Assembly: GCA_018666555.1 (NCBI GenBank)
Contig: JABIZD010000078.1
Location: forward strand, 1-61,351
Direction: 5' to 3'
DNA from: Gammaproteobacteria bacterium
GTDB lineage: Bacteria > Pseudomonadota > Gammaproteobacteria > Pseudomonadales > Azotimanducaceae
DNA length: 61,351 nt
The number at the start of each line of letters is the position of its first letter. Position 1 is the stretch's first letter. A model generated the notes under the pieces. That model saw only the letters and a program-made list of their open reading frames with translations, made no database searches and was not told where the DNA came from. This document shows, piece by piece, positions 14,812 to 47,409 of this stretch. Both the position numbers and the translations under genes were made by a program.

Positions 14812-15342
14812 TTAGGGAACTGCTTCGCCAGATTCCTCCAATAATGCCAGTATCTCGAGAAATGCACCCTCAGCAATCGCTTTCATCTCCGCGTCAGTCT
14901 TGTTCTGTATCGGATGGGGTACAAATGCTCTAAAGGGACTAAAGCCCAATGACTTAGCTTGACTGTCAGCGGCTTCAACAAACTCTTCCGAGGCGATAAA
15001 TGCACCGGCAACACCCCGGCGATCAAGATCTAATATGTCATGCAAACTGCACGACGTGCACGAGCCTCAGTCAGCTAACGCTTCAAGTACCAGATCGCAC
15101 TCAGCAGCAATTTGCTGAGTCAACTCAATCGGTGCAACTCGCGTGAAAGTGGGTTTCCTATATCTGACTGTCTTGGCTCCCTTTTGCTTGAGCAAATCCT
15201 CTATCCTATCGATGAATATATCACCTTTTGGTTTGGCTATATCGAGCAAGCCAACTGTCTTACCAAAAACGGATTTCGGCCGGGCCCGAGGCAGTCGCCC
15301 TTCGGGATTCAACTCCGCGGTTGGGTCTAATAATTCCATCAT
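14812..15342 (-). CDS. UGSC-family selenoprotein (in-frame UGA = selenocysteine)
   Basis: A 176-residue protein if the in-frame TGA at 15069-15067 is read as selenocysteine (residue 92). The TGA sits exactly where the family motif U-G-S-C-T-S-C-S is expected (GSCTSCS follows it). The reading frame continues with conserved-looking sequence (LHDILDLDRRGVAGAF) to a normal stop. The N-terminal half has the family pattern VGLLDIAKPKG and ends CDLVLEALAD before Sec. A SECIS-like hairpin follows the UGA. An AGGAAGG precedes the start. It follows the thioredoxin-fused gene by 26 bases at the end of the lipid A operon. UGSC proteins are known from marine metagenome selenoproteome surveys; their reaction is not established. 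Confidence 0.88.
15037..15055 (-). promoter_or_regulatory. bacterial SECIS-like hairpin for the UGSC gene
   Basis: On the mRNA, GTCGTGCA and TGCATGAC form an 8-bp stem (one G-U) around a GTT loop. The loop starts 20 bases after the UGA and has G in its first position. Both fit the bacterial SECIS rules as I know them: apical loop about 16-37 bases after UGA, with a G among its first two bases. SelB should bind it. Confidence 0.75.
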
Positions 15343-15368: not shown

Positions 15369-16784
15369 TTACACTATAATCTTTTTTGTCACCGGGATAC
15401 TACCCATTGGTCCGCTGGCAGCCCAACCTGCGATGATCGCCGAAAACAGACCAGCTGCGCCCCCGGCTCTGACCACCGACAGCCCGCCTTCCCTGAATTT
15501 AGGCAGCACCTTGTCAACCGCAGTTTGTGGTAATCCTTCTGTTATACCTCCAGCACCAGCGACTAACTCAGTACCAGGAATCATCAACAGTTCTGCTAAT
15601 CGATCCTTCAGGTCCTGTTTACTCCAATCTGCTTCCCTGTATACACGCTCATGTTCAGGAGACACCACCAAAAATGCATCGGAAGACATTACCAATTTAG
15701 GATGGGCAACAACCCTTAAAGCAGCGGCAAAGGAGCGTGTCAATGAATCCGGGTCCTTTGATTTCTGGTCAACAATTCCCTGCACACCATCGGCAGCAAA
15801 CAGCGTAACGGTCGAATCCTCTGCCGCGAAACCCTTTTCCTCAGCCAACGATTGCCAGCAGGAGCCAGCCTCATCTTCAGCAAAACAGAAAGTATACTTC
15901 CCTGGATTACCAAGCGCAGAACGATCCACCTGTCGTGGTCTACCGCCGCCAATATTGCGGATCACAAGTTGCAAGGCTCTGCCTATGGTCGCATTAGCAC
16001 GATTACCCTGGCCAAGTGCATTACCTTTCGCATTCATACCGATTGATCGCGCAAGAGGCCCGTTAACAATCACCATTGGTCCAGAAAAGTAGGTGGTTGC
16101 AAGCAGTCCATGCATGCAAAACTCATCTTCCAGCGCAGCCTCGACCGCGGTAATAACCACTGGCAAGTACTCAGGTTTACAACCCGCCAAAACGGCATTT
16201 AACGCTATTTTTTCGATGGTACAGCGACCTAAATCAGGAGGCACAGCGCCAATATACTCCTGAGGGTCGCGCTTTGTACCTGACAGCATGCGCATCAGTC
16301 TGACCTTAGTTGGCGGCACAACAGGCAAGCCATCTGACCAACCCTGGTCAAAACATGCCTCTATATCATCGTCGGCTGTAAATTCAAGAACTCTGGATTG
16401 CAGCTTGTCGGCCTCAAATCTGGCAGCCAGTTTTTCGGGCATACCTGGATCCAGGGTTTTAGAACCACAACCTGGCTGAAACAAGGGTAATTTAATAGTG
16501 AACTGCAGCCCAGTTATTTCCTGCCAGGCTGCTTTGTCCCAGCCATAAATACGACTCACCTCGCCACTGTCATGTTCCTTAATAAGAGTCGGAACAATTT
16601 CAATGTTGGCTCTGTAGCTACGCTCCAGGCTTTCGTCAAACGTCACTGCGTACCCCTCAGGAAAGTCAGCATCATCCTGGCTCACCAGTTCTACATCCAA
16701 TTGATTTAATATTTCCGGCAAAAGTGGCTCAATCAGCTTACAGGTACCACAAGACTCCTTTACGAATAACTGATATTTGCTCAT
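15369..16784 (-). CDS. thioredoxin-fold protein fused to a UGSC-associated domain
   Basis: A 471-residue cytoplasmic protein. Residues 1-90 look like a thioredoxin/glutaredoxin fold with a CGTC redox motif (Cys12, Cys15) and a cis-Pro-like IVPTL. From about residue 130 a large unfamiliar domain follows, with motifs QGWSDGLPVVPPT, NAVLAGCKPEY, GNALGQGNRANATIGRA and NIGGGRPRQVDR. I associate this domain with UGSC-family gene pairs, but its function is unknown to me. The ATG overlaps the kdsB stop (ATGA) and the UGSC selenoprotein follows 26 bases later, so the pair probably works together. Electron transfer from CGTC to the Sec/Cys centre is my inference. Confidence 0.7.
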   Translation of the reverse strand: MSKYQLFVKESCGTCKLIEPLLPEILNQLDVELVSQDDADFPEGYAVTFDESLERSYRANIEIVPTLIKEHDSGEVSRIYGWDKAAWQEITGLQFTIKLPLFQPGCGSKTLDPGMPEKLAARFEADKLQSRVLEFTADDDIEACFDQGWSDGLPVVPPTKVRLMRMLSGTKRDPQEYIGAVPPDLGRCTIEKIALNAVLAGCKPEYLPVVITAVEAALEDEFCMHGLLATTYFSGPMVIVNGPLARSIGMNAKGNALGQGNRANATIGRALQLVIRNIGGGRPRQVDRSALGNPGKYTFCFAEDEAGSCWQSLAEEKGFAAEDSTVTLFAADGVQGIVDQKSKDPDSLTRSFAAALRVVAHPKLVMSSDAFLVVSPEHERVYREADWSKQDLKDRLAELLMIPGTELVAGAGGITEGLPQTAVDKVLPKFREGGLSVVRAGGAAGLFSAIIAGWAASGPMGSIPVTKKIIV

Positions 16785-17762: not shown

Positions 17763-20642
17763 TCAGATTTGCACCGACAGTTTAAGTTTATCCAGAATAC
17801 TTGTCATCAATGTACTGGGAATTTGCACGCCAACGGATAAAACCCATACTTCACCGAGAATGTCAGAAAGATCAATAGAGCGGCACTTAATAGCATCTTT
17901 TTCAGTAATGATAATCGGCAGGTCATCACCAAACACAAAATCTTCTTGGGTGAACATATAATGGTCTGGAAAGGGATGTTCGATTACTTTTAGACCTGAT
18001 TGTTGCAAGGTAGAAAAAAATCGGTTTGGATTGCCGATCCCAGCCAGGCCATGTACCGGCCTCTCACTGAGCTCATCCATACTCTGTTGCTTACCCGTAA
18101 TCAGGTGGGTTAGTAGTTGCGGCACCAACTTCATCTGTATCGCATTTGCCGGGGCCACGCCCCTTTTATCTTCACCATTGACGATTACCCAGTCGACCTC
18201 TGCCATCCTCGATTTAGGTTCTCTCATTGGTCCCGCAGGTAGCGAACGCTCATTACCGAAACCGCGTTGACCATCAATTACCATAAGCTCCGCATCCCGG
18301 TGCATGCGATAGTGTTGCAATCCATCATCACTGATAATGACATCACAGGCCGCTGAATGCAGTAACGCCTGAATTGCAGCAACCCTATCAGCGCCGATTA
18401 CCACCGGGCATCCTGCCTTAGTTGCGATAAGCACTGACTCGTCGCCAACCACTTCTGGATCGCTATTGGCTGTCACCAGCCCAGGCCTTCGCTGGCTACC
18501 CCCATAACCTCTAGAGATAACGCCTGGCTTAAACCCTAAAGCGACAAGCTGGCTGGCCAACTCTATCACCAGGGGCGTTTTGCCGGTGCCACCTACGGTG
18601 AGATTACCAATAACTAAGACCGGCACAGGAGGCCGAAACTTCAAGGCCCGTCGCAGGCGTTTGCGTCTGAAAAATGCAATTCCTTGAAAGACCCAACTCA
18701 GGGGTGCCAGGAGCGCTAACCAGGCAGCATTTTCATACCATGCTTCTGGCAACCTGACCAGATTCTGAATCGCCAAACGGTTGCGAACGGGTACAGTTGC
18801 AAGGTTAAATGAACGCTCTGAAAGTTCTGATGCGGTATCAACTGCAGTTTCACGCTGATCAGCATTTTCATACAAATTAGCGTAGTAGTCGCCTAACTCT
18901 AATAATTCAAGATGGGTGCCCTGCTCAACGATGCGTCCCTCATCCAAAACAAGGATTTTATCAGCTCGTTCAATGGTACTTAGCCGATGGGCAATAACCA
19001 CCGTCGTTCGACCTGAAACGATGGTTTCAAGTCCTGATTGAATTGCTCTCTCGGATTCGGTATCTAAGGCTGAAGTCGCCTCGTCCAGTATTAAAACCGG
19101 GGCATCCTTCAGCAATGCCCTGGCAATTGCCAGGCGTTGTCTCTGTCCACCCGACAGCAGTATGCCGTTATCTCCCACGACAGTGGATAAACCGTCTGCT
19201 AATCCTTCGATGAAGTCCCAGGCATGAGCATCCTTGGCTGCCTCAATAACCGCTTCTCGGTCTGCGGAAGCTAAAGCCCCATAGGCAATATTACGCTCCA
19301 CTGAGTCATTAAATAAGGTCACCTCCTGACTGACCAAAGCCAGATGCTGCCTTAAATTAGCAAGAGAAAATTCCTCGATCGGATGACCATCTAACAAAAT
19401 ACGGCCTTCGGTCGGGTTGTAAAAACGCGAGACTAACGCCGCCAGGGTCGACTTCCCTCCACCGGACCGGCCAACCAAAGCAACTGTTTCGCCAGGCATA
19501 ACAGTAAAATTAAGGTCCTTTAGTACATACTCCTGGTCATCGCTATAGCGAAAGCTTACGTTATCAAATTCGAGTTTACCTTCGACGGTCTGCAATTCCA
19601 GGCTACCGCTGTCGTCTTCCTCTGGCTCATCTAATAATTCAAAAATATCACTTGCAGCAGCAATTCCCCGCTGAATGATAGATATGACTTCAGTTAATTG
19701 GCGAATGGGCTTGGCAAGCAGTCCGCCCGTGGTAATAAAGGCGACCACATCTCCAGTACTCATTCCTGCTCTCGCGCCGGGCAACAGAATCAACCAAACC
19801 AATCCAGCCAACACCGTCGCCACTATAAGTTGGATCAGCGGCGTGGCTATCGATGATGTCAGAACCATTTTCATGGATTGCCTTCGATTGGTCTGGCTTA
19901 CCTGGTCAAATCGGTCACGTTCATAAGCATTGCCACCATAGGTACGAACTTCACGATAGCCCTGGACTGCCTCTGATGCGACATGCGTCACATCACCCAT
20001 CGAATCCTGTATGCGTTCACTTATTTTCCTGAAACGCCGGCCTGCTATCCGGGCCAACAAGCCAATAAGAGGTGCTACAACTGCAAACACCAGCGTCAGT
20101 TGCCAGTTTAGATAAAGAAGAAAGCCCAGATAACCAGCCACTGTGAAACCCTCTCGAAACAGGACTTTGATCGCATCTGTCGCAGCCCCTGTAACTTGAG
20201 TAACGTGAAAGGTCAGTTTAGCGACCAGCCTTCCGAAAGCATGCTGGTCATAAAACTGACTAGGCAGTTTGAGAAGTTGTTCAAATAAATCGCGACGCAG
20301 ATTATAAATCATGGTAGTTGCCGCAAAATTAATGAAATAGTTACCCAGAAAGGTGCCTATGCCACGAATAAAAACGATGACAATAATAGCTGCTGGAACA
20401 AAGATCTGGTTATTAATGTCGCTGATACCAAACCAGCCCATCATGGATTCAACCGCAGTTGAGGGCCCAGTTGAAGCACTCTCCAGGGAATCAACCAGAT
20501 AGGATACAAGCTGTACAACACTCACATTACCGGCCGAATACAACAGAAACCCTATGATACTTACGGCAAATGCGGCCCAGGGCGTATACGACAGTAACCG
20601 ACGATAAATGCTTAGATCAGAGACTGGGGTAGCTTCAGTCAC
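17763..20642 (-). CDS. msbA-lpxK: fused lipid A flippase MsbA - tetraacyldisaccharide 4'-kinase LpxK
   Basis: One frame encodes a complete MsbA-type ABC exporter followed by a complete LpxK. With the GTG start at 20642 it has 959 residues. About 1-345 are the transmembrane domain. About 355-590 are the nucleotide-binding domain, with GRSGGGKST at 391, LSGGQ at 497 and Walker [13 protein letters not shown] 40-residue linker leads to LpxK from about 632, with [18 protein letters not shown] and DDGLQHYR intact. There is no stop and no in-frame ATG across the junction. I prefer GTG 20642, which overlaps the exbD end and has GGAG 11 bases upstream; the frame is open to 20705. MsbA flips lipid A across the inner membrane, and LpxK adds the 4'-phosphate just before that step. 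Confidence 0.88.
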
Positions 20643-21060
20643 GACTGACTTCTCCGCTCTGAGTGCTAATGCTGACCTGTTCAAACCCCAATTGACCCGC
20701 CACATCTAATATCGTCACGACCGACTGATGTGGGGCTTGCCCGTCAGCAATTAACACCAATTGCCGATCATTGCCGCCTTCACTGACGGCGACAAGGGCA
20801 CCACGCAGTGTTTCAATGGATTGATTGAGTAATACTTGCTCATTTACTGCATAAAGACCTGTTCTACCAACAGTCACTGTCACAGCCTTAGCCGAATCAC
20901 TGGAGGCAACCCCCTCTGCCGACGGCAGTTCAACCATTAATTGGGTTTCCATGGTAAATGAGGTAGAGACCATAAAGAAAATAAGCAGCAGAAACACCAC
21001 GTCAATAAGAGGCGTTAAATTAACTTCGGGAGGTTCTATGTTTCGTCGAGCGAATTTCAT
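20635..21060 (-). CDS. exbD: ExbD/TolR family biopolymer transport protein
   Basis: Inner-membrane partner of ExbB in a proton-driven motor that energises outer-membrane processes. The 141-residue protein has the family N-terminus EPPEVNLTPLIDVVFLLLIF, with the essential Asp in the single membrane helix, and a periplasmic domain. It overlaps exbB by 4 bases and msbA by 8. The exbB-exbD-lpxK region beside comEC is conserved in Pseudomonas, where the pair is not tied to a TonB gene. Confidence 0.93.
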   Translation of the reverse strand: MKFARRNIEPPEVNLTPLIDVVFLLLIFFMVSTSFTMETQLMVELPSAEGVASSDSAKAVTVTVGRTGLYAVNEQVLLNQSIETLRGALVAVSEGGNDRQLVLIADGQAPHQSVVTILDVAGQLGFEQVSISTQSGEVSRD

Positions 21061-21819: not shown

Positions 21820-23034
21820 TCATGCGACAATTTTAGCATCGTGCAACCTGCCAATTTCCGCACCGCTCAAGCCAAGTTCCTCTGCCAGAATCTGGTCTGT
21901 ATGCTCACCAAGGACAGGTGATTTCAGAGAGGGTAAATTCGCTGACTCAGAGAAACGAATGGGCGAAGAAGGGACAAGATAAGATCCAATACCAGGCTGT
22001 TCAAGACTCTGGAATAAAGGATTATCACTCGAACAATCCGGATCTTCCTCCACCATTTCCTGAAAACTACGATAGGGCCCGTAGCACACACTGGCCTGGT
22101 TAAATTTCTCCTCAATAAAAGCATAATCATGCTTGCCGAACCAGGGTTCAAGAACTGCCGCAATTTCCTGGCGGTTGGCGAACCTATTGCCTTCTGTATC
22201 AGTATGAATACCTTTTTGCGTCAGTGCCTCGAACTGCTGGCCTGTATCCGTGGCTACCTGTATAGCGCCCCATTGCTTTCCCGTTAAGCCAACAATCATA
22301 CAGCGGTGTCCATCTTTGCTGACGAAGTCACGGCCAAAAGCTCCGTAAAGGTAATTTCCCACCCGCTCCCTGTCATGTTTGTTGATCATCACCTCCGAGA
22401 TATTGCCCAGATGTCCGGCCGTGGCTAAGGCAACATCTTTCAAGGCAATTCGAACTATTTGACCCTGACCACTTCGTTGACGATACCGCTCTGCTGCCAG
22501 GAGCGCGGTTGCCGCCATTTGACCGGTAATATTGTCCCATGCTGGCAACAAATAATTGGTTGGGTGATCACTGTTTTCTGGACCTGTTGCATTGGTAAAA
22601 CCAACGGCACAATTGACGGTATAATCAAGTGCAGAACCGCCCTTTCGGTCGCCAAGCACGTTTACATAAATCAGATCCTTACGAACCTTGCTCAACTCAT
22701 CAAAGGCCAGCCAGCCTCTTTCTGGGAAATTAGTCAAAAACAATCCCGCTTCGGGATCGGGCCTGGATAACAAAGCAGTGATGATTTCTCTACCTTCGGG
22801 TTTTCGTATATCCAACTGAATTGATTGCTTGCCTTTGTTCATTCCCGCCCAGAAAAGGCTGGTTCCGGAAGCAGTAATCGGCCATCTCCGGTAATCCAAG
22901 CCACCGCCGATGGGATCAAATCGAATGACCTTGGCACCTAGCTGTGCCAAGGTCATACCACCTAAAGGAGCAGCGATAAATGCGCTACCTTCGACGACAG
23001 TCATTCCTGATAATATTCCTTCCATATTAGACAC
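21820..23034 (-). CDS. CaiB/BaiF family (class III) CoA-transferase
   Basis: Moves CoA between carboxylic acids. The 404-residue protein has the class III N-terminus (GMTVVEGSAFIAAPLGGMTLAQLGAKVIRFD), WAGMNKGKQSIQLD, and the catalytic region DYTVNCAVGFTNATG. The conserved Asp is replaced by a nearby Asp/Tyr context that I cannot align with certainty. It is last in an apparent five-gene operon with a MaoC hydratase and a PLP enzyme. The CaiB plus MaoC pairing recalls mesaconyl-CoA enzymes, but the substrate is unknown. Confidence 0.82.
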   Translation of the reverse strand: MSNMEGILSGMTVVEGSAFIAAPLGGMTLAQLGAKVIRFDPIGGGLDYRRWPITASGTSLFWAGMNKGKQSIQLDIRKPEGREIITALLSRPDPEAGLFLTNFPERGWLAFDELSKVRKDLIYVNVLGDRKGGSALDYTVNCAVGFTNATGPENSDHPTNYLLPAWDNITGQMAATALLAAERYRQRSGQGQIVRIALKDVALATAGHLGNISEVMINKHDRERVGNYLYGAFGRDFVSKDGHRCMIVGLTGKQWGAIQVATDTGQQFEALTQKGIHTDTEGNRFANRQEIAAVLEPWFGKHDYAFIEEKFNQASVCYGPYRSFQEMVEEDPDCSSDNPLFQSLEQPGIGSYLVPSSPIRFSESANLPSLKSPVLGEHTDQILAEELGLSGAEIGRLHDAKIVA

Positions 23035-23058
23035 TTATAGCAGTTAATTAATATTCAA

Positions 23059-24069
23059 CTATGCAGTCAGGCAGGCTAACCGCCAATCAAGCACTTTTGC
23101 TGACTGCATCTCGGCTGGTGCTTCGGAGCCTCGCTGTGCGGTCACCTCGACGTGCAGCTTTAAGATTCCGCCCTGCTGCAGAGATAGCGTGTCCTCAATG
23201 GTGACCCGAGTAGAGAGTATGTCCTGTTCAAACACAGGCCCCGTATGATCGCACTGGTACCAGGCAAGAATAGAACACAGATTCGGTATCAACCTGGTAA
23301 TCTGGGAGCTGGCAACGGCAATGGTGTGGCCTCCGTATACCAAGCGCTTACCATAGACACTCCGGCTTGCATCAGTATGAGTCATCGCCATGTTTAAGGT
23401 CATCCGGACTAATTCAGGCGCACAGGTGACGGTGTCAGCAGCTTCAATATCAATAATAGTGCCGATTTCAAAGTCTGCGAACTTAGTTCCCTTAGCCAGC
23501 CGACCAAAGTGATCCAACGACCAGTCAGGCAGGTGTTTCAGCAACTCCTGATCGCTGATGCTAGCTGGCATACTTTCAAAGGAATCGGCTTGCCTGGTTT
23601 CTGCCTCAGGATCCCGGCACGGTAACATCGGACACCGCCAGAACAGCATTACAGTCTGATCATGTTGATTAGTCACATGCATCTGTAGCGCTACCATGCC
23701 GGTCGCTGCCCTACCCGCTTTGATGGTGTTCTGCCGGAGAGCAATCACAGAGGTTTGAGTGGTTAAGGTATCACCAAGGAAAACCGCATTTTTAAGATGC
23801 AGACCTCTGTAAAACAGATTACCCAGCACACGTTGAGATGGTATCGTACTCTGGCCAATGGCGAGGTTACAAACTAATGCGTTATTCGCCAGCAAGCCGG
23901 CCCTGCCCGTCACCTTTCGGCATAATTCTACATCAAGAGACAATTTGCTCCGATCGCCAAACAGCGCTTGGTGAATCGCCGCCATACCTTCCGTAACGGT
24001 GATTGCCGGCACATCTGAAAGATCATCACCAACAGAGAAATCTTCAAAAAAAGGCACATAAACTGTCAT
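23059..24069 (-). CDS. MaoC-like (double hot-dog) dehydratase
   Basis: Probable enoyl-CoA or mesaconyl-CoA-type hydratase with two hot-dog domains in 336 residues. The first domain has LVCNLAIGQSTIP and FYRGLHLKNAVFLGDTL; the second has MTHTDASRSVYGKRLVYGGHTIAVASS, matching MaoC catalytic segments. I chose the ATG at 24069: it overlaps the upstream stop (ATGA) and is preceded by GAGGA. It lies between the PLP enzyme and CoA-transferase genes. It probably handles a CoA ester made by the neighbouring transferase (inference). Confidence 0.78.
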   Translation of the reverse strand: MTVYVPFFEDFSVGDDLSDVPAITVTEGMAAIHQALFGDRSKLSLDVELCRKVTGRAGLLANNALVCNLAIGQSTIPSQRVLGNLFYRGLHLKNAVFLGDTLTTQTSVIALRQNTIKAGRAATGMVALQMHVTNQHDQTVMLFWRCPMLPCRDPEAETRQADSFESMPASISDQELLKHLPDWSLDHFGRLAKGTKFADFEIGTIIDIEAADTVTCAPELVRMTLNMAMTHTDASRSVYGKRLVYGGHTIAVASSQITRLIPNLCSILAWYQCDHTGPVFEQDILSTRVTIEDTLSLQQGGILKLHVEVTAQRGSEAPAEMQSAKVLDWRLACLTA

Positions 24070-25244
24070 CTGGAAAGTCCTCGAGTAGAAATGGGCCAAA
24101 GTTCATGTACCAGACCATCACGAACAACAAAATAGAAATCATGGAGGTTAACTGTCGGGTCGCAATGCGGAGTCAGCAATTCGAGTTTATCCCCTAAAGC
24201 AACCTGCCGTGAGGGGTTATTCAATTGCACGATACCGTGCTCATCGCCACCCCAATGATAGCGCAATCCTTCTATGTCTTTAAATTCCGGTGCCATCTTA
24301 TCCGACGCAATTGACTTGAAGCCGGCATCAACGGTAATCAACGTCGACTGGGGTTGACTGATAGCAGTTACCAACAGATGCAACGCGACTTCAAAATCCT
24401 CAAACAGCGGTTTATCCACGCCACCAATATCGCGGTATTCAATATCCATAAAAGCAAACGAGCCTGCCTGTAATTCGGTGATCACACCCAGAGCTCTTTC
24501 AAGATCATAGGTCCCGGTACCACCGCCGGACACCTTATTGACCTGAATGCCTGACGCCTCAATCATATCCCGAGTATCTGAACCCTTTTCCATGACCTTG
24601 AAGTACTTCTTGCGGCGCTCTGAATGGCCAGAAATATGCATGCAATTACCTGCATACATCTGCAGCCCTAAGAATTTGAGGTTAGGGCAACGTTCCACTA
24701 TGTGAACCACGAGGTCAAAAGCGGGTCTACCTGCCTGGATGCCGGTGCGCCCCATACCAGGGTCAATATCAACCAAAATCCCTAAATCAAGGTCATTTTC
24801 GCAAAGCATTTCCTGCAGTTGATCGGCAGTCTGCTGACAATCAATAACCATCTGCAACTCTTCATTGTGGTTAGCCAGCTTTACCACCCGGCGCAGACTG
24901 TCCGGGCTGATTACAGGGGAAGTAATCAATATGGGTTTGATGCCGGCCAGTTGCATTACTTCAGCTTCCGAGACCTTCGCACAGCAAATCCCGACTGCAC
25001 CTGCCGCTAGCTGTTTCCGTGCGACTACGGGTGATTTGTGCATTTTTGCATGCGTTCGCAGGGATAACCCTGAGGTTTTAACATGGTGAGCCATACGTTC
25101 CAGATTTCGCTGGAATCCCGCTTCATCTATCAACAAAGCTGGCGTAGGCACCTTATCCAGAGGCACTGGTGTATCCAGTAATATAGCCTCAACCGGGCGG
25201 CTTTGTAGCTGGCTTTCGAAAATATCATCTAGTGTTACTGGCAT
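24066..25244 (-). CDS. DSD1 family PLP-dependent enzyme (D-3-hydroxyamino acid aldolase/dehydratase type)
   Basis: A fold-III (alanine racemase-like) enzyme of 392 residues. The PLP lysine lies in LRTHAKMHKSP. GLQMYAGNCMH, KVSGGGTGTYD and the C-terminal metal site LLTPHCDPTVNLHD (His-x-Cys) match D-threonine aldolase and D-serine dehydratase/3-hydroxyaspartate aldolase relatives. Such enzymes cleave or dehydrate D-3-hydroxy amino acids and need a divalent metal. It shares a 1-base TAATG overlap with the CDF metal transporter and an ATGA with the MaoC gene. Confidence 0.82.
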   Translation of the reverse strand: MPVTLDDIFESQLQSRPVEAILLDTPVPLDKVPTPALLIDEAGFQRNLERMAHHVKTSGLSLRTHAKMHKSPVVARKQLAAGAVGICCAKVSEAEVMQLAGIKPILITSPVISPDSLRRVVKLANHNEELQMVIDCQQTADQLQEMLCENDLDLGILVDIDPGMGRTGIQAGRPAFDLVVHIVERCPNLKFLGLQMYAGNCMHISGHSERRKKYFKVMEKGSDTRDMIEASGIQVNKVSGGGTGTYDLERALGVITELQAGSFAFMDIEYRDIGGVDKPLFEDFEVALHLLVTAISQPQSTLITVDAGFKSIASDKMAPEFKDIEGLRYHWGGDEHGIVQLNNPSRQVALGDKLELLTPHCDPTVNLHDFYFVVRDGLVHELWPISTRGLSR

Positions 25245-44131: not shown

Positions 44132-45529
44132 TTGGCTACAGAGCATCCTGCCAGGAAACTACCGGGTGTCGATCAATTATTGCAGCAGGCTGAAGCTGCT
44201 GAATTGATCCGTATCTTTGGTCGCACGGCCCTAACCAAGTCGATCCGGCTCGTCCTGGACCAATGGCGCAATAGCAATGACCTAACCGTAAAAGCGCCCT
44301 CCCAGACTATCATTCTAGAGCAGGCTGCTGAGCATCTCGGTAAACATGATGTCGGCCTTAAACGGCTTATAAACCTCACGGGCACGATGATTCACACCAA
44401 TCTCGGCAGGGCAGCATTACCCGAAACTGCAATTCAGGCCATGTTAACGGTTGCCAGCAATCCAACCGACCTCGAATACGACTTGGAAACCGGGCAGCGA
44501 GGTGACCGTGACCATCACATTGAGTCATTAATCACGGAAATCACCGGTGCCGAGGCCGCCACAGTCGTTAATAATAACGCAGCTGCCGTAATGCTCGTCC
44601 TTAACACACTGGCCTATGGTAGGCAGGTCCCGGTCTCGAGGGGCGAGCTGGTCGAAATAGGCGGTTCCTTCAGGGTCCCAGAAATCATGACCCAGTCAGG
44701 ATGTAGTTTGGTTGAAGTTGGTTCTACAAACCGGACTCATAGTCGGGATTTCAAGCAAGCTATCGGCCCTGATACGGCCATGCTGATGAAAGTTCATACC
44801 AGTAATTACCAAATTCAGGGCTTTACTAAGAGCGTTCCTGAGGAGGAGCTAGCCCGGTTGGCTACTGAAAATGGCCTCCCTTTGATGAGTGACCTGGGTA
44901 GTGGCACGCTGGTCGATCTCAGGAAATATAACCTGCCTTATGAACCAACAGTACAGGAAGCCGTTTTAAGTGGGGCACACATCATCACTTTCAGTGGTGA
45001 TAAACTACTCGGTGGTCCACAGGCAGGTATTATTATCGGCCGTAAGGAGCTAATAGCCAGAATCAAAGCCAACCCAATGAAGCGTGCTCTGAGAGTCGAT
45101 AAAGTGACCCTGGCTGCCTTGTGCGAAGTACTGAAACTATACCGCAATCCTGATCAACTGAGCCATGCTCTACCAACCTTGAAGTTACTTTCCAGAAGTC
45201 CTCAAGACATTGAACAAATGGCGGATATACTGCTTCCAGAATTCAGACAATATCTGGAAAAAGCCCAATACCAAGTTAATAAAATTCAACTCAAAAGCCA
45301 GATTGGCAGTGGTTCGATGCCGCTGGATCTTCTTGCCAGTTGGGGCCTGAGCATTTCCACAGAGGCCAACAAGGGTGCAGACCAGAAACTACGAACCCTT
45401 GCAGAGGCGTTTCGTCGCTTACCTGTTCCGATAATAGGAAGAATCCACCGTGGCCATTTACTATTTGACCTCAGAACGATCTTCGAGCCAACAGAAATCC
45501 GCCAGCAGCTGAGTCTTCTCACTATATGA
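44132..45529 (+). CDS. selA: L-seryl-tRNA(Sec) selenium transferase
   Basis: PLP enzyme that converts seryl-tRNA(Sec) to selenocysteyl-tRNA(Sec) using selenophosphate. The 465-residue protein aligns with E. coli SelA from LPGVDQLLQQ onward. It has NLTGTMIHTNLGRA, VNNNAAAV, RGELVEIGGSFR, the HTSNYQIQGFTK segment and the PLP lysine in SFSGDKLLGGPQAG. The start must be TTG 44132, since TAG at 44114 closes the frame upstream and no nearby ATG fits. It overlaps selB by 4 bases. Confidence 0.95.
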   Translation: MATEHPARKLPGVDQLLQQAEAAELIRIFGRTALTKSIRLVLDQWRNSNDLTVKAPSQTIILEQAAEHLGKHDVGLKRLINLTGTMIHTNLGRAALPETAIQAMLTVASNPTDLEYDLETGQRGDRDHHIESLITEITGAEAATVVNNNAAAVMLVLNTLAYGRQVPVSRGELVEIGGSFRVPEIMTQSGCSLVEVGSTNRTHSRDFKQAIGPDTAMLMKVHTSNYQIQGFTKSVPEEELARLATENGLPLMSDLGSGTLVDLRKYNLPYEPTVQEAVLSGAHIITFSGDKLLGGPQAGIIIGRKELIARIKANPMKRALRVDKVTLAALCEVLKLYRNPDQLSHALPTLKLLSRSPQDIEQMADILLPEFRQYLEKAQYQVNKIQLKSQIGSGSMPLDLLASWGLSISTEANKGADQKLRTLAEAFRRLPVPIIGRIHRGHLLFDLRTIFEPTEIRQQLSLLTI

Positions 45530-47409
45530 TCATCGCCACTGCAGGTCATGTTGACCATGGCAAAACACTTCTGGTAAAAGCACTGACCGGCATCAGCACT
45601 GATAAACTTTCGGAAGAAATAAGCAGAGGCCTGACCATCGAACTGGGTTTCGCTTACAAGAATTTTGGAACGCACCGGCTCGGCTTCGTTGACGTTCCTG
45701 GCCATATTCGCTTTATCCATAACATGCTCGCTGGTGTTGGCGCAGTCGACTATGTGCTTCTGGTGATTGCGGCTGACGATGGGCCGATGCCACAGACTAT
45801 TGAGCATCTGGCTATCATCAACGAGTTAGGTATCAGCCGCGGTGCAATTGCCCTGACAAAAATTGACAGGGTCTCCTCTGCCAGATTAACAGAAGTCAAA
45901 AGGCAAATTGGCGAGCTGGTCTCAGGGACATTCCTCGCCGAGGCAGCTATCCTGCCTTGCTCGGGTATCAACCTGGACGGAATAGAAGCACTAAAGGCCC
46001 ACCTGACTGGCGCCGCAGCTAGCCTACAATCAAAACTAGAGCCCGGACACTTCCGGCTGGCCATTGACCGAATCTTTACAGTCAAAGGTGCAGGTCTGGT
46101 AGTAACTGGAGCCGTTACCAGCGGTCGCGTTGCGATTGGCGATGAACTGACCTTATTAGCTCAGGGAAAAACAGTCAGAGTTCGTCAGATACACCGCCAG
46201 AATGTTAACAGCGACAGCGCCCAGGCCGGTGATCGCTGCGCTCTTAACCTTGCCTCGGTTAATCTCTCGCGCCAGGATGTGCACCGCGGTGACTGGTTAA
46301 CAAGCAACCCATCCCTGACCGGGTCGCATCGCGTTGATGTTCAGGTTCGAGTGCTCAAGGCTGAACGAACTGCCTTAAAACACTGGACGCCCGTTCATAT
46401 CCACAGCGCCGCAAAACATGCTCTGGGGCGAATCGCTACCCTGCAGGATTCTAAAATCAACCCTGGTGAGACAGGTTTTGTGCAGATGGTCTCGGACGAA
46501 CCACTGTTCCTGTGCGCTGGTGATCGATTAATACTGCGAGACCAGGGAGCCAACAGAACCATCGCCGGTGGCCTGGTGATTCAAATGCACTCGCCGCAAC
46601 GAGGTCGAAACGCACCTCTGCGAGTGGCACACCTGCAAAAACAAGTTCTAGCGGTAAGCCTGACGGAAAAAATAGCGGCGCTGCTTGAAAGCACGGATCA
46701 TGGCATTCTACTGAGCAGCCTGGAAGCCCAGTTAAATAGATCTATCAGCGAGCTAACAGCGCTGATCAAGGAAAATACCGATTGGGTTACCATCAACCAG
46801 ACCCTCATCACTAAAAAGCAATTAGCGGCCCTAGGACAGAGTCTGATTACTCAACTTCGCCACTGGCACAGCCAACACCCAAACCAATACGGTATCGAAG
46901 TGAATCGAGCTGTTGGCTTTCTGCCCAGGCAGATCAACTTCGCCAATGATCTGTTGGATATACTGGCAAAGCAGAAAATCCTTAAAAAAACCGGTGCACT
47001 CGTGGCAGTAAAGGATTTTAATATCCGGTTATCAGATGCAGCCCAGGTAGCGCTGGATAAAGTATTACCACTGCTCAGCCAAGAACCAAGCAAACCTCCT
47101 GTCCTACATGATCTCGCCAAAATCACTCAAATTGACCCCCGGCAACTGGAAAAAATCCTCATGGAGTGTGTCAAAGCAGGTCGTTTAGTTCGCCCTGTGG
47201 CTAATCGGTTTTACCGACCCGATGCCATCAACTCCTTAAAGGACCTGATTATTGATAATTTCAGTGATCGTGACTTTACTGTTCAGGAATATCGAGATGC
47301 TGCAGGTATTGGCCGCAACCTGGCCATTGAACTACTTGAGCACTTCGACCGGCAGGGTTTTACCAGAAGAAACGGGAATTTTCGCCAGGCTTTACCATCA
47401 AAGACCTAA
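45526..47409 (+). CDS. selB: selenocysteine-specific elongation factor SelB
   Basis: GTPase that delivers Sec-tRNA(Sec) to UGA codons marked by a SECIS hairpin. The 627-residue protein starts with GHVDHGKT, followed by DVPGH and LTKID (G3 and G4). EF-Tu-like domains II and III and a C-terminal array of winged helices for SECIS binding (about residues 390-627) follow. The ATG overlaps the selA TGA. Two SECIS-like hairpins in this window are its likely targets. selC and selD are not in the window. Confidence 0.96.
   Translation: MIIATAGHVDHGKTLLVKALTGISTDKLSEEISRGLTIELGFAYKNFGTHRLGFVDVPGHIRFIHNMLAGVGAVDYVLLVIAADDGPMPQTIEHLAIINELGISRGAIALTKIDRVSSARLTEVKRQIGELVSGTFLAEAAILPCSGINLDGIEALKAHLTGAAASLQSKLEPGHFRLAIDRIFTVKGAGLVVTGAVTSGRVAIGDELTLLAQGKTVRVRQIHRQNVNSDSAQAGDRCALNLASVNLSRQDVHRGDWLTSNPSLTGSHRVDVQVRVLKAERTALKHWTPVHIHSAAKHALGRIATLQDSKINPGETGFVQMVSDEPLFLCAGDRLILRDQGANRTIAGGLVIQMHSPQRGRNAPLRVAHLQKQVLAVSLTEKIAALLESTDHGILLSSLEAQLNRSISELTALIKENTDWVTINQTLITKKQLAALGQSLITQLRHWHSQHPNQYGIEVNRAVGFLPRQINFANDLLDILAKQKILKKTGALVAVKDFNIRLSDAAQVALDKVLPLLSQEPSKPPVLHDLAKITQIDPRQLEKILMECVKAGRLVRPVANRFYRPDAINSLKDLIIDNFSDRDFTVQEYRDAAGIGRNLAIELLEHFDRQGFTRRNGNFRQALPSKT

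Follow-up and report, generated by a model that had tools for sequence, protein, structure and literature searches.

The window, the whole stretch of 61,351 nucleotides that was analysed, carries on its minus strand a predicted selenoprotein gene of the UGSC family with a larger gene, here called the partner, directly upstream, and on its plus strand two genes for selenocysteine (Sec) insertion. The features are listed below.

14812 to 15342, minus strand: UGSC-family selenoprotein gene (predicted), 176 aa, Sec at residue 92, TAA stop at 14812-14814; 139.8 bits to NF041046 and 137.6 bits to PF24696.
15067 to 15069, minus strand: in-frame TGA, predicted Sec codon (the U of UGSCTSC); every one of the 112 loci examined has TGA here, and two Cys-form relatives have TGC.
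15037 to 15055, minus strand: putative SECIS hairpin with an 8-bp stem, a conserved 6-bp core (15039-15053) and the loop GUU from base +20 after the UGA.
15369 to 16784, minus strand: partner gene, 471 aa, with 26 bases between its end and the UGSC start codon; assigned by co-occurrence.
16506 to 16784, minus strand: thioredoxin domain of the partner, residues 1-93, with C12-G-T-C15.
15372 to 16400, minus strand: un-modelled domain of the partner, residues 129-471, found by alignment to be common to the partner of the paralogue on contig C135.
44132 to 45529, plus strand: selA, L-seryl-tRNA(Sec) selenium transferase; 571.1 bits to TIGR00474, cut-off 267.9.
45526 to 47409, plus strand: selB, Sec-specific elongation factor; 425.8 bits to TIGR00475, cut-off 242.25.

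Translation of the minus strand yields a product of 176 residues reading MMELLDPT...EALAD-U-GSCTSCSLHD...GEAVP, and the sole internal stop in this frame is the TGA at codon 92. The original prediction, that the frame is broken once and exactly at the U of UGSCTSC, was confirmed, and so was its claim that family-like sequence resumes after the TGA. When the full product was compared with the family, the match covered positions 2-146 of 147 in the NCBIfam profile NF041046 and 1-171 of 172 in the Pfam profile PF24696, with both scores above the respective cut-offs of 125 and 25 bits. It had also been expected that automated annotation would report two short ORFs or a pseudogene. This holds for a plain ORF caller, and our mechanical ORF list (at least 80 aa) contained only the 91-aa first part of the gene; it does not hold for NCBIfam, the library from which NCBI names proteins, which contains an equivalog model named "UGSC family (seleno)protein" that the window protein passes. 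The protein appears to be an ordinary member of this family, sharing with it the near whole-length match, the Sec codon in UGSC, the bacterial-type SECIS and the existence of Cys-form relatives. After the U it reads GSCTSC, compared to GSCTTC in 90 and GSCSTC in 20 of the 112 loci, and no tested feature places it outside the family.

The 112 UGSC loci, all of which have TGA at the U codon, comprise two from the source genome, the 30 best of a survey of the same bacterial family and the best 80 of 532 in genome_contigs. The UGSC domain was encountered in 173 of 200 same-family genomes, where the TGA was placed in the 30 best matches and the other matches were assessed by stop count only. Across the phylum survey, it was found in 5 of 398 genomes, the source genome included. 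Two of these (G338 and G510) have TGA at the motif and SelB above cut-off; another two, from other bacterial families (G342 and G476), have TGC at the motif and no SelB above cut-off. One of the two Cys-form genes, L161 of G476, has a further in-frame TGA and seems to be frame-shifted, which suggests a copy in decay or a fault in the assembly; the other is L162 of G342. Frameshifts or random stops in relatives had been named as evidence that would speak against a selenoprotein, and in the relatives examined this codon specifies Sec or Cys and is not a random stop.

The selA and selB genes overlap and share the window with the UGSC gene (44132-47409). Elsewhere in the source genome (4.17 Mb in 217 contigs), SelD was identified on contig C128 (251 bits, cut-off 125), and a tRNA-Sec with anticodon TCA was identified on contig C207 (49.8 bits against a gathering score of 47) and was also recovered by ARAGORN. 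A paralogous UGSC gene on contig C135 (L002 1495-2022, minus strand) has one TGA, located at the UGSC motif; its hairpin differs, and its partner lacks the thioredoxin domain. It was also noted that the same genome contains three GRDB-family (PF07355) matches, on contigs C29, C23 and C60. In the gene on C29 (L133 781-1959, minus strand), an in-frame TGA stands for the U of a PrdB-like motif, so further selenoproteins in this genome are likely.

The putative SECIS hairpin, GUCGUGCA-GUU-UGCAUGAC, has G as the first base of its loop, which begins at base +20 after the UGA, in agreement with the original prediction. Bacterial SECIS elements are described, in passages of PMC1088965, as lying directly downstream of the UGA with a G in a small apical loop, and the window hairpin fits this description in both position and loop. 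Taken alone, neither this hairpin nor that of the paralogue L002 folds better than shuffled sequences. For the window hairpin, z was -1.33 over 40 nt (equalled by 21 of 200 shuffles), -0.53 over 50 nt including the UGA (65 of 200) and -0.54 over 66 nt, and an Rfam scan of the window gave no match at gathering score. The hairpin stands above chance because it is conserved, not by its own fold: all 65 distinct sequences retain every pair of the six-pair core (standard pairs in 390 of 390 cells), and codon +7 is frozen. One core pair varies as G-C, G-U and A-U; the paralogue L002, with its different hairpin, was left out of this alignment. Over the 112 loci, codon +7 is the Ser codon AGT in 111, codon +6 is TGC in 111, codon +10 is GAC in 108 and codon +5 is ACG in 106, and all six Ser codons are used for the Ser at codon +2. 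This pattern argues that the hairpin is maintained at the cost of free codon choice, with a few compensatory changes. The covariation shuffle control (32 of 500) was weak in the 65-sequence set because the set is so conserved. We also used a hand-picked set of 26, consisting of 23 of the 65 and three relatives from other families (L159, L160 and L163). Here the covariation score of the real alignment was reached by 0 of 500 shuffles, and its number of pairs changed on both sides by 20 of 500. In L163, a C-G pair of the stem has become G-C by compensatory change, and the protein there has Trp and Phe compared to the usual Cys and Leu/Val. The Cys form L162 has two of the six core pairs broken and TCG in place of the frozen AGT.

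Because the TGA is conserved, the Sec machinery is encoded, the hairpin is kept and Cys forms occur in genomes without SelB above cut-off, the window gene is almost certainly a true UGSC-family selenoprotein, and the family cut-offs likewise support this reading from the original prediction. As a finding, the gene itself is ordinary, being another member of a known family; the useful part of the result is its link to GrdB and its near-obligate partner. Three points go beyond the original prediction: the existing catalogue entries for the family, the partner gene immediately upstream and the likeness of the Sec domain to GrdB/PrdB.

A homologue of the partner was found in 110 of the 112 UGSC loci, and none was encountered within the short stretch around each of the other two (L019 and L040). 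In 106 of 112 loci, including all 80 from genome_contigs (the best 80 of 532), the homologue is encoded upstream of the UGSC gene in the same orientation; in L002 it is downstream of the UGSC gene, and in L020-L022 it is on the opposite strand. The match ran from residue 10 or earlier to residue 450 or later in 82 of 112 loci, thioredoxin domain included, and some partners lack that domain, the C135 paralogue's among them. With thresholds of E 1e-10 for the partner and 1e-3 for UGSC, both genes were counted in 173 of the 200 same-family genomes, the partner alone in 2 and neither in 25; every UGSC-positive genome thus had the partner. Copy numbers of the two genes were equal in 172 of 200 genomes (147 of the 173 with both; Spearman 0.92). 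Conserved Cys residues of the partner outside the thioredoxin domain include C106, present in 56 of 56 alignment rows, and C202, present in 50 of the 57 rows that have a residue at that position. More than one partner domain (two or three) was seen in 14 loci: eight Chloroflexota loci (L075, L078, L083, L088, L091, L092, L094 and L100) showed three partner-domain matches around one UGSC gene, and six more loci showed two. A fusion of UGSC with a domain called "Unknown_1" is mentioned in a 2008 paper (PMC2398784).

The 343-residue domain of the partner had no Pfam or NCBIfam match, and several candidate identities were considered. Class I fumarase was rejected: the top Foldseek hit was a Leishmania fumarase at E 5.6e-5, but with a TM score of 0.25 and an rmsd of 16, and the profile compared with the fumarase of the same genome (one sequence) gave E 0.52. 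No sequence signal was obtained for a relative of GrdG, GrdI or PrdA (E 0.51) or of GrdB (E 0.45). GrdE, GrdG, GrdI and PrdA are pyruvoyl-type partner subunits.

The UGSC proteins were also compared with the Sec domain of the GrdB/GrdF/GrdH and PrdB selenoproteins (PF07355, TIGR01918 and TIGR04483). A profile of 57 UGSC proteins aligned with 13 GrdB/PrdB-like proteins at E 4.5e-6 (probability 86.6). After seven proteins were added (unannotated GrdB-like genes of Acetoanaerobium and Photobacterium, Peptoclostridium GrdF, Enterococcus GrdH and three PrdB), the comparison gave E 4e-7 (probability 92.8) over 102 columns, with Sec on Sec and the alignment extending to UGSC residue 174 of 176. The 13 were taken from 16 proteins, leaving out L135 (unknown residues), L143 (wrong coordinates) and L148 (truncated start), and L132 and L140-L142 were not recovered from the locus set of 20. 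Among the controls, the best E was 0.04 for 50 other families (51 run, one being UGSC itself, with some antisense ORFs among them), 0.11 for 40 column shuffles and 0.073 for reversed profiles. The NCBI UGSC model also matches the GrdB of a relative (L129) at its Sec domain, residues 352-413, at E 6.1e-5 and 23.1 bits against the cut-off of 125, and BLASTP of the window protein against the same GrdB gave E 2e-5 with 24 of 84 positions identical. In these alignments, UGTCTRC in the C-terminal domain of GrdB falls on UGSCTSC, and the HPLG of GrdB, which is YPLG in GrdF/GrdH and VPMG in PrdB, meets the HPI of UGSC. A separate partner subunit encoded adjacently is a further shared feature; GrdB differs in having an N-terminal part that UGSC lacks.

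It was noted that PF07355 gave no match at E of 10 or below for the window protein (P0001) or the 57 members, where HMMER filters drop most matches above about 0.1, and that the UGSC profile matched 12 marine PrdB-like proteins alone only weakly (E 0.0028, probability 10.9). For these reasons we claim only that the UGSC Sec domain is a distant homologue of the GrdB/PrdB Sec domain, and not that UGSC is a member of the GrdB family. A search of 150 phylum genomes for full GrdB at E 1e-60 found none, but the control genomes had no match either, so this result carries no weight. In the portions of the open-licence PubMed Central literature that treat both families, no link between UGSC and GrdB/PrdB was found, and the likeness and the constant partner both appear to be new.

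Taken as a whole, these observations are probably best explained by a Sec-decoded UGSC protein that acts with its partner as a two-gene reductase resembling GrdB/PrdB. By analogy, UGSC most likely serves as the selenocatalytic subunit of this reductase and works in the manner of GrdB/PrdB, an assignment that we regard as about evenly balanced. More tentatively, and with somewhat less confidence than that, the pair may form a separate class of Sec reductase, in which a minimal GrdB-type catalytic domain has had its pyruvoyl subunit swapped for a new substrate subunit, often with a built-in thioredoxin, and which would cleave carbon-heteroatom bonds of dissolved organic compounds in Gammaproteobacteria, Alphaproteobacteria and Chloroflexota.

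In the glycine reductase system, GrdB binds the substrate and ammonia is released, and GrdA is thought to interact with the UxxCxxC motif of GrdB (PMC13188914). For the UGSC pair, SelB and tRNA-Sec would decode the UGA as Sec at the hairpin directly downstream, and the UGSC protein and its partner would form a physical complex with the substrate sitting between them. The proposed attacking group is Sec92, which heads a helix in an alpha/beta domain; it would react with a carbon atom of the small substrate and displace the leaving group. Cys95 would then resolve the selenium adduct by forming a Se-S bond, to be reduced in turn by C12/C15 in the thioredoxin domain of the partner. The un-modelled domain of the partner may take over substrate holding from the pyruvoyl subunit, to which it shows no sequence resemblance. 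What the sequence shows directly is the Sec codon with its conserved hairpin, the genes of the Sec machinery, the partner's near-obligate presence and the profile likeness to GrdB/PrdB. Decoding as Sec in vivo, assembly of the complex, its chemistry and the route of the electrons are inferred, the mechanism by homology. The partners without a thioredoxin domain, including that of the C135 paralogue, count against this explanation, and so may the service of glycine reductase in certain anaerobes (PMC13188914). Since the partner shows no likeness to the alpha subunits GrdG, GrdI and PrdA, the amine-specific mechanism may not carry over. The neighbourhoods of the UGSC loci gave no consistent clue to the substrate: the gene following downstream was in the opposite orientation or distant in 46 of 73 loci, as was the upstream one in 43 of 73. 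Acyl-CoA-dehydrogenase-like genes were encountered near 30 of 80 loci and CoA-transferase-like genes near 20 of 80 (names read from the sequences), and these were not used as a substrate clue because there was no background rate.

A different reading of the strict pairing is that UGSC reduces only the un-modelled domain of the partner, which would be the seat of a different chemistry, and that the GrdB likeness reflects ancestry without a shared mechanism. The conserved partner residues C106 and C202 would suit such a client, but the partner already has a thioredoxin domain fused to it in 82 of 112 loci, which would leave no need there for another reductant, and we consider this reading unlikely. 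It is less probable still that UGSC is a general thiol-disulfide oxidoreductase of thioredoxin-like fold, as the literature groups the family, with the partner as its redox client. The UxxC redox motif, which UGSC has in common with thioredoxin-fold selenoproteins, is consistent with that role, whereas the predicted structure gives little sign of it. In the AF2 model (pLDDT 89.2), ten elements follow one another as alternating strands and helices, and Sec92 falls between the strand at 84-90 and the helix at 93-108. Among the 50 matches listed in either fold list there was no thioredoxin, other alpha/beta folds being present, although such an absence is not decisive. The UGSC profile also gave only E 0.12 against the neighbouring thioredoxin domain of the partner, compared to 4e-7 for GrdB/PrdB, and UGSC, as judged by profile, appears closer to GrdB/PrdB than to thioredoxin. 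That the gene is a pseudogene or a sequencing error with TGA as a real stop is extremely improbable and already contradicted, for although a single stop in a single draft assembly and a hairpin no better than shuffles would allow it, the TGA recurs in every locus examined and at the same place in the paralogue, the SECIS codons are frozen, the full Sec machinery is encoded and Cys forms accompany the lack of SelB above cut-off.

The UGSC family is credited to a 2007 paper (reference 60 of PMC13188914). It comprised 255 selenoproteins and 21 Cys homologues in the Global Ocean Sampling table, ranking fifth by selenoprotein number (PMC2398784), and it is still placed among the families of uncharacterised function in a passage of a 2026 review (PMC13188914), with which the original prediction agrees in calling the enzymatic role not established. 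Together, the GrdB/PrdB link and the near-obligate partner for the reductase proposed here turn the open function of UGSC into a defined experiment.

Other genes of the window were also noted. On the minus strand, a 980-aa ORF at 17763-20705 combines MsbA (residues 33-613, TIGR02203, 709 bits) with LpxK (residues 671-964, TIGR00682, 243 bits), so that a lipid A exporter and a tetraacyldisaccharide 4'-kinase form one chain. Further along the same strand, the region 21820-24099 encodes a CoA-transferase like 2-methylfumaryl-CoA isomerase (554.5 bits, below the cut-off of 725) and an adjoining protein that resembles RipB/Ich hydratase (55.8 bits, cut-off 340), a gene pair suggesting a mesaconyl-CoA-type route.
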